Of a stretch of 12,569 nt of DNA, positions 2,078 to 8,950 are shown one piece after another. Origin of the DNA: an uncultured Spirochaetales bacterium (GTDB taxonomy: Bacteria; Spirochaetota; Spirochaetia; Sphaerochaetales; Sphaerochaetaceae); the NCBI GenBank assembly GCA_937902565.1, contig CALFMX010000155.1, positions 1 to 12,569 on the forward strand, given 5' to 3'. The notes beneath the pieces were generated by a model. It made no database searches. It was not told the origin of the DNA and saw only the letters and a list, made by a program, of their open reading frames with translations. How positions within the stretch are numbered: the first letter of the stretch is position 1; each line of letters starts with the position of its first letter. The position numbers and the translations under genes were made by a program.

Positions 2078-2106
2078 GTGAAAAATCGGTACTCTACTTC
2101 TATACA
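2078..2106 (+). promoter_or_regulatory. Possible clpP promoter overlapping the tig terminator
   Basis: GTGAAA (2078-2083) and TATACA (2101-2106) lie 17 bases apart and each match 4 of 6 consensus positions. If used, transcription would start near 2113, inside the left arm of the terminator hairpin. The clpP transcript could then not form that terminator. The match is weak and the call is tentative. Confidence 0.25.
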
Positions 2107-2138
2107 AGGCGGAACCTCACCGGCTCCGCCTTCTTATT
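2106..2138 (+). terminator. Intrinsic terminator or attenuator between tig and clpP
   Basis: AAGGCGGAACC (2106-2116) and GGCTCCGCCTT (2122-2132) form an 11-bp stem with one A-C mismatch and a five-base loop. A short T-rich tail (CTTATT, 2133-2138) follows. It ends 20 bases before the clpP start codon, so clpPX expression needs read-through or its own promoter. The short, interrupted T tract suggests partial rather than full termination. Confidence 0.65.
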
Positions 2139-2158
2139 CCAAGCACAGGGGGTGTGCA

Positions 2159-2766
2159 ATGAACAACCATCCGGTCAGGATGTATAATGCAATACCAATG
2201 GTCGTCGAACAGTCCGGTATCGGCGAACGTGCCTATGATATCTTCAGCCGGCTGCTCAAGGACCGGATCGTCTTCCTTGACGGGGAGATCCACGACGCCA
2301 ACGCCGACCTGGTGGTGGCCCAGTTGCTCTTCCTCGACAGCGAGGACCCGGGCAAGGACATCAGCCTCTATATCAACAGCCCCGGTGGTTCGGTCACCGC
2401 CGGCCTTGCCATCTACGATACGATCCAGTACCTGCACTGCGATGTGCAGACGATCTGCATGGGCCAGGCGTGCTCGATGGCCGCTCTCCTCCTGGCCAGC
2501 GGCAGCGACGGCAAGCGCTGGGCCCTTCCCTCCTCCCGGGTGATGATCCACCAACCGTGGGGTGGCGTCGAGGGCCAGGCCGCCGACATCTCCATCCAGG
2601 CGCGTGAGATCGGCCGGCTCAAGCAGCTGACCATCGATATCCTCGCCCGCCACACCAAGCGCAGCATCGAAGAGATACGCCGCGACGTGGAGCGGGACTT
2701 CTTTCTCGCCGCCGAAGACGCAGTCTCCTACGGCTTGGTCGACAACGTCATGAAAAGGAGCTCCTG

Positions 2767-2767
<1 letters not shown>
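2159..2767 (+). CDS. clpP: ATP-dependent Clp protease proteolytic subunit ClpP
   Basis: The serine peptidase chamber of ClpXP. From the ATG at 2159 it is 202 residues, close to the family norm of about 200. The catalytic triad is visible: Ser106 in [11 protein letters not shown], His131 in RVMIHQP, and Asp180 in [18 protein letters not shown]. The oxyanion and substrate strand [15 protein letters not shown] lies at about 74-88. An in-frame GTG at 2078 would add 27 residues but would translate through the terminator hairpin, so the ATG at 2159 with AGGGGGTG upstream (2147-2154) is preferred. The normal GxASM is here GQACSM, with Cys105 before the active serine, a minor variation. The stop codon overlaps the clpX start by one base (TGATG), so the two are translationally coupled. 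Confidence 0.96.
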
Positions 2768-3996
<1,229 letters not shown>

Positions 3997-4995
3997 GCCG
4001 TTCAGCTACCCGGCGGTCGATGGAGAGATCATTGTCCTCCTCAAGGACAGGCCTGAGTTCATCGTGGCAGGGCATGTCGGCCCCGACGGCGACTGTCTCT
4101 CCAGCCAGTTTGCCATGGCTGCCTTGCTGCAGAAGCTTGGCAAGGTGGTCCACCTAGCCAACGCCGGTCCCTTCGACCGCTCCGAGATCGCCCACCTGCG
4201 CTCCGACTTCCTCACACACATCGATGATGGGCTGAGGGGACGCAATCCGGTGGTGGTGGTCGTCGACTGCTCCAGTCCCGACCGCCTCGGCCACCTCGCC
4301 GATGAGATCGAGGGCTTGACCACACTCGTCTTCGACCACCACTCAAGCGGGGAGAAGTTTGGCGATTTTCGCTACATCGTCCCCCGTTCGGTCTCCACCA
4401 CCATGATCATCATGCACCTCTACAAGACGATGGGGGTTCCCATCGACACGGAGATCGCCGAACACCTCTTCTTCGGCCTCGCCACCGACAGTGGCTTCTT
4501 CCGCTTCCTCTCCTCCTACCGTGGTGAGACGCTGCGCATGGCAGCCGAGCTCGTCGACCTGGGGGTAAGCCCCAATGCGATGGCCGACCGGATGAGCGGG
4601 GGCAAGAGCGAGGGGTACGTCCGGTACCTCGGCAAGCTCATCGATCGCAGCGAGAGCCTCTTTGGTGGCAAGCTGATGATCTCATCCTCCTATCTGAAGG
4701 ATGCACGCTCCTTCACCACCAGCGACAAGCCCAGTGATTCCCTCTACCAGATCCTCCTCTCCATCGAGGGGGTTGAGATGGTACTCTACTTCAAGGAGAT
4801 CGACCACAATGTCACCGAGGTAGGCATGCGGTCTGCCTATACCAGCCCGATCAACGTCGGCGAGCTCGCCGAGTCGCTGGGGGGCGGTGGCCACCGCAAG
4901 GCCAGCGGTGTGACGCTGGAGTGCTCCATCGACGAGGCCAAGCGCCGGCTCATCGAGGCGGCGGGAGCACTGCTCCTCTCGTAGATGGCACGCAC

Positions 4996-5035
4996 ATTGC
5001 ATGCTCTTGTGAACATCACACAAGGAGCATGCAAT
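4996..5035 (+). promoter_or_regulatory. Hairpin that sequesters the ribosome binding site and start codon of the sigma-like gene
   Basis: ATTGCATGCTC (4996-5006) pairs perfectly with GAGCATGCAAT (5025-5035). Inside it, TTGTG (5007-5011) pairs with CACAA (5019-5023). G5024 is bulged and the loop is AACATCA (5012-5018). This gives 16 base pairs. The right arm contains the Shine-Dalgarno AAGGAG (5022-5027) and the first two bases of the ATG at 5034. The left arm starts 12 bases after the upstream stop codon. No T tract follows, so it is not an intrinsic terminator. The pairing is seen directly; a role as a translational switch or coupling device is inferred. Confidence 0.75.
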
Positions 5036-6035
5036 GAGAATCCTTCCCCTCTGTGAAACAGCATCCCTGGCCCTGGACAGGCTGGTGATGAGCTGCCAGA
5101 ACCAACCTTCCAACGCTGAGCTCTACCAAACCGTGCACGAGAAGACCCAACAGTTGCTCTACGAGCTGCCCTCCCACCTCCACGTGCTCGACGAGGAGGA
5201 GTGCGCGTCCTTCCTCTTCTTCTGCTGGGATGCCATAGACCACTACATCACGACCTTCCGCACCGGCAGGCTCTCCTACCTCGGCTACCTCAGCCAGGTG
5301 GTCCGCCAGCGGAGCCGCTACTACATCGCCCAACAGCGCGAGCGGGCCCACAAGGAGCGGCTCCTCATCAAGAGCCAGCCTTACGCCTATGATGATGACT
5401 CCTCCAGCATGACGGGAGAGAGCGAATACCCCTATGGCCCGTCGTGTGATCCGGCAACCCTCGATATCGAAAACCTCCCCGCCCTCTTCAACCAACTGCT
5501 CACATCCGAAGCCAGGCCCCCCGAACGGAGTTCTCCTGCGATCAGCGAGCAGCTGCAGGCGCTCTTTCTCAAGGAGACCAATCGCCGGCGCCTCCTCATC
5601 GTCCTCACCCTCTGCCCCGACATGGCCAACACCCACCTCCTCGATGAGCTCTCCCTCCTGTTGGGCGTCGACCGTACCTGCCTCTCCACCTACCTTGCCA
5701 CCGCCGAGATCCTTCTTGAGAAGAAGCGACACTGCCGAGAGGAGTTTGAGGCGGTGAGCAACCGTCACTTTCGCCGGCTCCTGGAGATCGAGGCGCAGAT
5801 CGATGGAGAGACCGAAGAGGAGGAGCTCGAGCGGCTCAGGGCCCTGCGAGAGTGGACGGCAGGGGTCTACAAGGCCAAGGTGACCAAGATCCGTGAGCAG
5901 GAGATGGCCCTGACCCACAACGAAGCGAGCCGGATCTTGGGAATCCCCAAGGGGACGGTGGACAGTTCGGTCTACTATATCCGCCGACTTCTCCAATCCT
6001 ATATGGACGAGACCGGTGGCAATGAGTATCCTTGA
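5034..6035 (+). CDS. Sigma-factor-like protein with a C-terminal region-4-type helix-turn-helix, spirochaete type
   Basis: A 333-residue protein with no close named family that I recognise. Residues about 55-108 (EECASFLFFCWDAIDHYITTFRTG, then LGYLSQVVRQRSRYYIAQQRER) resemble sigma-70 region 2 helices. About 183-229 holds a possible second helix-turn-helix (HLLDELSLLLGVDRTCLSTYL). Residues 293-324 (LTHNEASRILGIPKGTVDSSVYYIRRLL) look like a region-4 DNA-binding HTH. Between them is an acidic, charged helical stretch (EIEAQIDGETEEEELERLRALREW). I recall similar unnamed proteins in spirochaetes, but this is memory and not a search. It could be a divergent sigma factor or a degenerate relative acting as a regulator. 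The start at ATG 5034 is fixed by AAGGAG at spacing 6, buried in the hairpin. The stop lies four bases before the rdgB start. Confidence 0.7.
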   Translation: MRILPLCETASLALDRLVMSCQNQPSNAELYQTVHEKTQQLLYELPSHLHVLDEEECASFLFFCWDAIDHYITTFRTGRLSYLGYLSQVVRQRSRYYIAQQRERAHKERLLIKSQPYAYDDDSSSMTGESEYPYGPSCDPATLDIENLPALFNQLLTSEARPPERSSPAISEQLQALFLKETNRRRLLIVLTLCPDMANTHLLDELSLLLGVDRTCLSTYLATAEILLEKKRHCREEFEAVSNRHFRRLLEIEAQIDGETEEEELERLRALREWTAGVYKAKVTKIREQEMALTHNEASRILGIPKGTVDSSVYYIRRLLQSYMDETGGNEYP

Positions 6036-6039
6036 GTAC

Positions 6040-6648
6040 ATGAAGATCCTGCTGGCATCCAACAATGACCATAAACGGGAGGAGTTCTCCCGTATCTTTG
6101 ATACCCATACCATCGCCCTCCCCCGTGACCTCTCCCTGGCCTTTGACTTCGAGGAGACGAAGGAGACGTTCACCGAGAATGCACTGGACAAGGCGATGGC
6201 CCTCCGGCCCCTCGCCCCCGCAGGGTGGGTCGTCCTGGCAGACGACAGCGGTCTCTGTGTCGATGCACTTGGTGGGGGGCCTGGGGTCCGTACCGCCCGC
6301 TATGGGCAGAAACCTGACGGAACATTGCTCGAGAGCGGAGAGCGCAACCAATACCTCTTGAAGAACCTCTCCCACCTCACCACCCTCGAAGAGCGGAGTG
6401 CTCACTTCGTCTGCGCCCTGGCCCTGGTGGTCAATGAACACCGCATCTATACCGTATGCGAACACGTCGACGGATTCATCGCCTTCGAGGCGAGCGGCAG
6501 CACCGGCTTCGGCTACGACCCGGTCTTCATCGTCGAGGCGGTCGGGGCCCCTATGGCCACCCTCGCCGAAGGCGAGAAGGATCGATACAGCCACCGTGGC
6601 GTGGCATCACGACGCATGAAAACCATCTTGGAGGAGATAGAACTATGA
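6040..6648 (+). CDS. rdgB: RdgB/HAM1-family non-canonical purine NTP pyrophosphatase (ITPase/XTPase)
   Basis: A 202-residue enzyme expected to hydrolyse ITP, dITP and XTP to the monophosphate and PPi, keeping deaminated purines out of nucleic acids. Family motifs are all present: the N-terminal ILLASNNDHKREEF (3-16), metal-site Glu39/Asp69 in FEETKETFTENALDKA and LADDSGLCVDAL, GGPGVRTARYG (79-89), TGFGYDPVF (155-163) and SHRGVA (184-189). GTG 6016 and ATG 6022 are alternative in-frame starts inside the preceding gene. ATG 6040 is preferred because homologues start right before the ILLA strand, although no strong Shine-Dalgarno precedes it; reinitiation after the stop at 6033-6035 would explain that. 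The gene overlaps pepF by four bases (ATGA). Confidence 0.93.
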   Translation: MKILLASNNDHKREEFSRIFDTHTIALPRDLSLAFDFEETKETFTENALDKAMALRPLAPAGWVVLADDSGLCVDALGGGPGVRTARYGQKPDGTLLESGERNQYLLKNLSHLTTLEERSAHFVCALALVVNEHRIYTVCEHVDGFIAFEASGSTGFGYDPVFIVEAVGAPMATLAEGEKDRYSHRGVASRRMKTILEEIEL

Positions 6649-8423: not shown

Positions 8424-8437
8424 GGAGTCCCCCATCC

Positions 8438-8484
8438 ATTCTGATACTATTCGTTGACAAAAATGATCAGGATAGTATCAGAAT
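8438..8484. repeat. 13-bp perfect inverted repeat downstream of pepF
   Basis: ATTCTGATACTAT (8438-8450) is repeated as its exact reverse complement at 8472-8484, separated by 21 bases. The spacer carries a perfect TTGACA at 8454-8459. There is no T tract after the right arm, so an intrinsic terminator is unlikely. An operator is more plausible. It begins 15 bases after the pepF stop codon. Confidence 0.7.
8454..8481 (+). promoter_or_regulatory. Possible regulated promoter inside the inverted repeat
   Basis: TTGACA (8454-8459, full -35 consensus) is followed after 16 bases by TATCAG (8476-8481, 4 of 6 of the -10 consensus). The -10 lies in the right arm of the inverted repeat and overlaps the direct repeats, so a bound protein would block it. 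No clear gene follows on this strand until the tRNA near 8867. The call is weak. Confidence 0.3.
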
Positions 8485-8496
8485 GTGATCAGAACA
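8464..8496 (+). repeat. Three contiguous imperfect 11-bp direct repeats
   Basis: Three adjacent units begin at 8464, 8475 and 8486: TGATCAGGATA, GTATCAGAATG and TGATCAGAACA. The shared core ATCAGRA sits at 8466, 8477 and 8488, exactly 11 bases apart, about one helical turn. An inverted copy of the core (TTCTGAT) lies at 8439-8445 in the left arm of the larger inverted repeat. The array looks like a multi-site operator. Confidence 0.55.
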
Positions 8497-8866: not shown

Positions 8867-8950
8867 GCGGTAGTGGTGGAATTGGTAGACACGCTAGCTT
8901 GAGGTGCTAGTGGGAGAAATCTTGTGCTGGTTCAAGTCCAGTCTACCGCA
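8867..8950 (+). tRNA. tRNA-Leu, anticodon GAG
   Basis: A class II tRNA of 84 bases. The acceptor arms are GCGGTAG (8867-8873) and CTACCGC (8943-8949), with A8950 as discriminator. The anticodon stem CTAGC/GCTAG (8894-8898, 8906-8910) encloses the loop TTGAGGT with anticodon GAG at 8901-8903, which reads CUC and CUU leucine codons. A long variable arm of about 15 bases and a T arm with GGTTCAAGTCC follow, as expected for leucine. The CCA end is not encoded (GCT follows), so it must be added after transcription. CTC is used very heavily for leucine in the neighbouring genes. Confidence 0.95.

Follow-up and report, generated by a model that had tools for sequence, protein, structure and literature searches.

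We found that the start site of a sigma-like gene embedded in a clp operon is buried in a hairpin whose left arm includes the -12 element of a sigma-54 promoter. We consider it likely that hairpin and promoter together make up a read-through lock that acts in cis and is tied to the promoter, such that RNA entering from the clp operon is silenced and RNA begun by sigma-54 polymerase is translated. The window, the whole 12,569-nucleotide stretch of Spirochaetales DNA, from a Sphaerochaeta-like bacterium, that we analysed, contains the following features.

720-2069: tig, the upstream gene of the same run as clpP, clpX and the DHH gene.
2078..3996, plus strand: clpP (PF00574) and clpX (zf-C4_ClpX, AAA_2), upstream in the same run.
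3953..4984, plus strand: DHH/DHHA1 phosphoesterase (PF01368, PF02272), its stop one base short of the T of the -24 element.
4986..5000, plus strand: sigma-54 promoter TGGCACGCACATTGC, with -24 TGGC at 4986-4989 and -12 TTGC at 4997-5000.
4995..5011, plus strand: left arm of the hairpin, overlapping the -12 element and ending one base before the predicted sigma-54 start.
5012, plus strand: predicted sigma-54 transcription start (A5012, in the hairpin loop), from consensus geometry.
5012..5018, plus strand: hairpin loop in the fold centroid.
5019..5036, plus strand: right arm of the hairpin, with the Shine-Dalgarno (SD) sequence AAGGAG at 5022-5027 and the start codon ATG at 5034-5036.
5034..6035, plus strand: predicted sigma-70-like protein of 333 amino acids, with a sigma-2-like N-terminus, a long helical insert and a sigma-4-like C-terminal HTH.
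6022..6648, plus strand: rdgB/Ham1 (PF01725), which overlaps or directly follows the sigma-like gene; its start is uncertain (6016, 6022 or 6040).

The hairpin is real and can be read directly from the sequence: C4995-G5011 pairs with C5019-G5036 in 17 base pairs, with one bulged base that is either G5024 or, if T5007 and G5024 form a wobble pair as they do in the fold centroid, A5023. A separate, independent analysis of the window recovered the perfect 12-nt arms 4995-5006 and 5025-5036, and a plain fold of 121 nt around the site was less striking (z = -1.85, with 6 of 200 shuffles equally good). The initial annotation had described 16 pairs with a single bulged G, enclosing AAGGAG and the AT of the start codon. 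The hairpin, the AAGGAG and, as one option, the bulged G5024 stand, but that count omitted C4995-G5036, whose G belongs to the ATG, and the complete start codon is in fact paired. The upstream stop had likewise been placed 12 bases before the left arm; the DHH TAG occupies 4982-4984, ten bases before C4995. That the left arm includes the -12 element of the promoter was absent from the earlier description, and because of this overlap the mechanism that we propose differs from the one given there.

In the usual sigma-54 geometry, transcription begins 12 nt downstream of the C in the -12 TTGC. For the window this predicts a start at A5012, within the loop, and hence a short mRNA without the left arm. 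The promoter form TGGCAYN5TTGCW has 12 matches in the window genome, compared with none in a reversed control; a stricter form gave 43 matches against 4 in the control over five genomes of the genus, with one match at the sigma-like gene in each. The gene for sigma-54 itself, rpoN (TIGR02395), is present in 137 of 139 family genomes, the window genome (G000) among them. Two clear activators are encoded in the window genome, L093 and the PspF-like L092 (429.9 bits; cut-off, 443.55), the latter adjoining two pspA-like genes. We found no terminator-like site at window positions 4700-5200.

We propose that RNA from the tig-clpP-clpX-DHH run would carry the entire hairpin, so that the ribosome site and start codon would be buried and the sigma-like gene would remain untranslated, and that the same read-through RNA could still serve rdgB and pepF downstream. 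Sigma-54 polymerase, once engaged by the promoter's presumed activator, would start in the loop near A5012 and produce a short RNA that lacks the left arm and can be translated. The -12 element of the promoter would then have a second job, as the anti-start strand. We found rdgB close to or overlapping the sigma-like gene in the loci of the genus and of group g14 where it is visible; it also follows in g11 loci with an upstream terminator, which weakens the argument from the downstream genes.

The product appears, from its sequence, to be a divergent sigma-70-like protein of an unannotated family. The window protein scored 20.7 bits against TIGR02937 (cut-off, 42.9), and the same model recognised 25 of 40 members of the family at E <= 0.01, the best at 8e-13. 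The N-terminal fold appears similar to sigma domain 2, a resemblance that is not conclusive. Pfam gave no match to the window protein above cut-off, a Foldseek structure search no match at E <= 0.001, and a sequence search of solved structures only two hits, both at chance level. The initial description of the product as sigma- or regulator-like agrees with the TIGR02937 matches among its relatives. We rejected the idea that the gene is the orthologue of Borrelia rpoS: TIGR02394 (RpoS) is absent from the product's NCBIfam matches up to E 10, and a separate RpoS-like sigma gene exists at L115 (genome G101; TIGR02394, 294 bits, below its cut-off).

We expressed occlusion as the predicted cost of opening the whole start region, from 13 nt before the start through the start codon. 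Pairing of the SD alone, which was used first, gave a mixed result, with the SD of loci in the genus often no more paired than in shuffles, because the stem is carried by the start-codon side; the whole-region measure, which the swap test described below also uses, was adopted after that result had been seen, and this should be weighed. As a control, the spacer was shuffled 200 times per locus with the promoter and start region fixed. The window read-through RNA required 18.1 kcal/mol to open its ribosome site, against 6.5 +/- 1.9 for its shuffles (p = 0.005, the floor of 200 shuffles). An RNA starting at 5012, or 2 nt earlier, is predicted to require 3.9 kcal/mol either way.

We compared 49 further SD-led ORF starts from the loci retrieved; their mean opening cost was 5.2 kcal/mol and none reached the window's 18.1. 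The sigma-like gene averaged 13.6 over 64 loci, 43 of which exceeded the 99th percentile of the control starts (approximately their maximum, with 49 starts). For the other genes of the window we obtained 0.5 kcal/mol for tig, 4.6 for clpX, 2.7 for pepF (2.1 for an in-frame alternative), 2.9-8.2 for clpP, 6.3-11.8 for DHH and 2.7-13.3 for rdgB, the ranges depending on which start is correct. The initial annotation had stated that no other gene of the operon has such a structure: the sigma-like start does show the strongest occlusion, but occlusion varies by degrees among the genes, and DHH and rdgB are structured too. Its suggestion that translation of the gene is conditional is very probably right.

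A protein search found the sigma-like gene in 112 of the 139 genomes of the family sample and a profile in 122; in a sample of the class, the profile detected it in 114 of 148 genomes. Loci were read from 90 of the 112 genomes. These gave 91 loci, two of which (L002 and L003) are one and the same, so that L002 is left out wherever 64 loci are counted; the start codons of L028, L039, L062 and L088 were assigned by hand. The DHH gene lies upstream in 80 of the 91 loci. The strict promoter TGGCn7-9TGC stands just upstream of the sigma-like gene in 65 of 91 (64 of 90 without the duplicate), with 24/24 in the genus, 3/3 in g14, 18/32 in g11 and 9/11 in g2, among others. The 26 loci without it count against the read-through lock; by eye, several carry looser versions. 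At five g11 loci (L067, L084, L086, L087 and L088) TGGC is replaced by TTNCCC or similar before TTGC, and by eye repeats that pair with the SD persist there. These repeats without TGGC also weigh against the lock: the explanation may be a change of promoter type or another use of the hairpin, apart from sigma-54.

At all 64 distinct strict-promoter loci the long RNA was costlier to open than the short RNA. Longer RNA tends to cost more to open, which is why the shuffle and swap controls matter. Own spacer shuffles were beaten at p <= 0.05 by 34 of the 64 loci: 16/23 in g1 (the genus), 3/3 in g14, 4/9 in g2, 5/18 in g11, 2/2 in g6, 1/3 in g20, 1/1 in g9, 1/2 in g13, 1/1 in g16, 0/1 in g19 and 0/1 in g5. 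The remaining 30 were not significant singly, and occlusion at L029, L044, L058 and L063 was at or under the shuffled mean; both facts speak against the lock. In the swap test each start was paired with left segments from other loci. We used 44 dereplicated loci, because near-identical genomes recur, and found that the own left segment gave 12.1 kcal/mol against 8.2 for swapped segments, a result that none of 100,000 permutations equalled (z = 10). The own segment ranked in the top tenth at 20 of the 44 loci and was the best at 9.

The position of the pairing was also informative. In the same 44 loci, positions -11 to -1 relative to the predicted transcription start had a pairing with the start region of 0.52 per position against 0.25 in shuffles; positions +1 to +6 showed a slight excess (0.26 against 0.20), and positions +7 to +15 lay below the shuffles (0.018 against 0.113). 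With the clear excess confined to -11..-1, the start is hidden mainly by the stretch that the sigma-54 RNA would lack. This pattern is as expected if the long RNA needs to be closed and the short RNA open.

Both arms have changed together among relatives. In 17 of 23 loci of the genus, the 8-mer ATGCAATG (window 5029-5036) or a one-base variant retains 7 or 8 of its eight possible pairs to the -12 element CATTGCAT. The assigned start is the first ATG of the 8-mer in 12 of these loci and the second in 5; since the two ATGs are in different reading frames, protein coding does not explain retention of the 8-mer. Beyond it, the extension pairs covary (pair score 45 against 32.9 +/- 4.1; 36 of 20,000 permutations), in a comparison that omitted the 6 of 23 loci without the 8-mer and allowed a one-base bulge to observed and permuted pairs alike. 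The g14 arms are unrelated in sequence and yet equally strong (16.7-23.0 kcal/mol). Loss of pairing without compensation in related genomes, which the initial annotation had regarded as telling against a function, was not the case for the genus overall, which has significant occlusion at 16 of 23 loci and covarying extension pairs; it was the case at the four loci at or under their shuffled mean and at most tested loci outside the family. Among 20 loci outside the family, the DHH gene is upstream in 12 and the strict promoter present in 11, and occlusion was significant in 1 of 13 tested (the L166 test was empty, with no spacer left to shuffle). This rarity counts against the lock; with the promoter kept and the hairpin mostly not, it indicates that the promoter is older and the hairpin an addition of the family. 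At two of these outside loci, L166 and L150, the assigned start codon follows the -12 element by 12 and 16 nt, respectively, and a sigma-54 mRNA would there be leaderless or nearly so.

Several other accounts of the hairpin were weighed. That -12 elements and ATG starts simply happen to be complementary is most improbable: the consensus TTGCAT alone matches ATGCAA, and the purine-rich SD may meet pyrimidine-rich promoter spacers, but the shuffles preserve composition and promoter, the swaps use real segments, and occlusion is absent from most of the Hsp20, PspA and RpoS-like genes that share this -12 element. Tested side by side, one of six such genes (four Hsp20, PspA and the RpoS-like gene) reached p <= 0.05, against five of six loci of the sigma-like gene. 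An RNA thermosensor or ligand-opened leader, in which heat or a factor melts the stem and the long RNA is translated, would suit the burial of both SD and ATG and the proteostasis genes found in the neighbourhood and among other sigma-54 targets. We regard it as highly unlikely. The predicted opening cost of the window stem is 18.1, 16.7, 14.5 and 11.9 kcal/mol at 37, 42, 50 and 60 C, five other loci are similarly stable (8.3-15.1 kcal/mol at 60 C), and loops and sequences differ between genera. No Rfam family, thermometers included, matched at the hairpin at gathering score, and a permissive scan returned only animal microRNA models below their cut-offs. The thermosensor-like switch of the initial annotation was rejected on its predicted stability on heating and the lack of an Rfam match.

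The same annotation had proposed that ribosomes finishing the upstream phosphoesterase open the stem, so that the gene would be co-translated with DHH. In the window, a ribosome terminating ten bases before the left arm could reach it, given the usual ribosome footprint. Over 61 loci, however, the DHH stop and the -24 element are separated by anything from 4 to 169 nt, and in the strong g14 hairpins the left arm starts well beyond the promoter, out of keeping with that footprint. On these variable gaps we rejected coupling as a general mechanism, and consider it very unlikely. Occlusion was commonest, in 21 of 28 loci, where fewer than 20 nt separate the end of the DHH gene and the promoter; it was found in 8 of 24 with longer gaps and no terminator, and in 3 of 8 with a terminator-like site. 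This trend speaks for the read-through lock, with the reservation that it is confounded by ancestry, as most short-gap loci belong to one genus. It is as improbable as coupling that the inverted repeat is a DNA operator, bound by a repressor or autoregulator over the sigma-54 start, with the RNA pairing incidental. The repeat does straddle the start site, with a window core of TTGTG-N7-CACAA, but arm sequences and loop lengths vary between and within genera, G-U pairs occur, and the match follows the SD and start codon wherever these are located. A fixed DNA-binding site would not accommodate such variation in arms and loops, and the operator was rejected on these changing arms and loops.

A stress circuit within a proteostasis operon had been suggested initially. 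A link to stress is plausible, given that Hsp20 and PspA genes of the window genome also stand behind sigma-54 promoters. We observed sigma-54 promoters at L097, L099, L105, L110, L133 and L115 before Hsp20 genes, pspA and the RpoS-like gene; by eye only, the DNA at L117 and L128 is similar to other sigma-54 target loci. Also by eye, a repeated TGTCANNNTGRC-like motif lies about 70-160 nt upstream of the promoters at L097, L099, L110, L115, L128 and L133, and may be an activator site of heat-shock-like sigma-54 genes. The by-eye motif from upstream of the Hsp20 and RpoS-like genes was not enriched at the sigma-like gene (3 of 65 loci, against 4 of 65 shuffled). Eleven more sigma-54 promoters, distributed between the window genome and four genomes of the genus (L100, L101, L121, L124, L126, L129, L130, L132, L134, L135 and L137), are followed by no script-found ORF. 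Instead, each has behind it a conserved sequence, either GAGCAACAG..CAAACCTCCTTAAAGTGTGATTT or GAGCAACA..CATACTCCTCCTTTT, with a terminator-like repeat after it. These probably represent a family of small RNAs, arranged in tandem and carrying anti-SD loops; four of the loci were compared with Rfam and had no match at gathering score. Within the window, we also noted a 14-bp perfect inverted repeat at 8437-8485, directly after pepF, and beyond both a tRNA gene at 8867-8950.

In its broader form, our proposal is that a promoter core element serves as an anti-ribosome strand, that the initiating sigma factor thereby decides whether an RNA can be translated, and that members of a spirochaete family have retained such a double lock on a cascade, linked to protein-quality control, from sigma-54 to a sigma-70-like protein, with both arms rewritten together and the promoter retained. 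We give this wider statement about an even chance of being correct. If it is true, one coding sequence with two RNA start points would have opposite translation, and an operon could house a stress regulator whose expression waits for activation of its own sigma-54 promoter. A literature search, mostly outside subscription journals, found nothing on sigma-54 in Sphaerochaeta or on this gene or hairpin.

Known systems share parts of this arrangement. In ROSE and FourU RNA thermometers, a hairpin covers the SD and start codon near heat-shock genes. The window hairpin likewise covers both SD and start codon near such genes, but its stem is predicted to be too stable to melt over the temperatures computed and has no Rfam match. 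The transposase genes of IS10, IS50 and IS200 are shielded from read-through expression by RNA that folds over the ribosome site, and RNA from their own promoter does not fold in this way. An occluded read-through RNA and an open own-promoter RNA would, on our prediction, be common to both cases; the transposases, in contrast, are mobile, have housekeeping-type promoters and guard against chance insertion, whereas the gene described here is a conserved host regulator. A title on IS200 mRNA structure stands in the reference list of PMC8450116.

In Borrelia burgdorferi, according to the accessible portions of PMC12472547 and PMC3966842, a short rpoS RNA arises from an RpoN promoter and an RNA 121 nt longer from an RpoD promoter, and DsrA exposes the SD of the long RNA. 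Both systems would then be spirochaete sigma-54-to-sigma cascades with an SD hidden in the long RNA and a short sigma-54 RNA. The gene, however, is a different one, the long RNA here would enter through the upstream operon, and no small-RNA opener is known here. In phage T4, the available part of PMC3014915 describes gene e (and also soc, 49 and I-TevI) as having a ribosome site hidden in early read-through RNA and free in late-promoter RNA. As described there, the start region is helical in the long RNA, the DNA encoding the 5' strand holds the promoter, and RNA from this promoter lacks that strand. The window matches a T4-type lock in the predicted sequestration of SD and start in the long RNA and in a promoter placement that, by consensus geometry, excludes the 5' strand. 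It differs in that T4 uses a phage late promoter, whereas here a bacterial chromosomal gene has a sigma-54 promoter with a -12 element that takes part in the pairing; in its conservation, with changed sequence, over a bacterial family; and in that the T4 effect is measured and ours predicted. If our reading is correct, the read-through lock of phages and insertion sequences would also be a conserved device of ordinary bacterial chromosomes.
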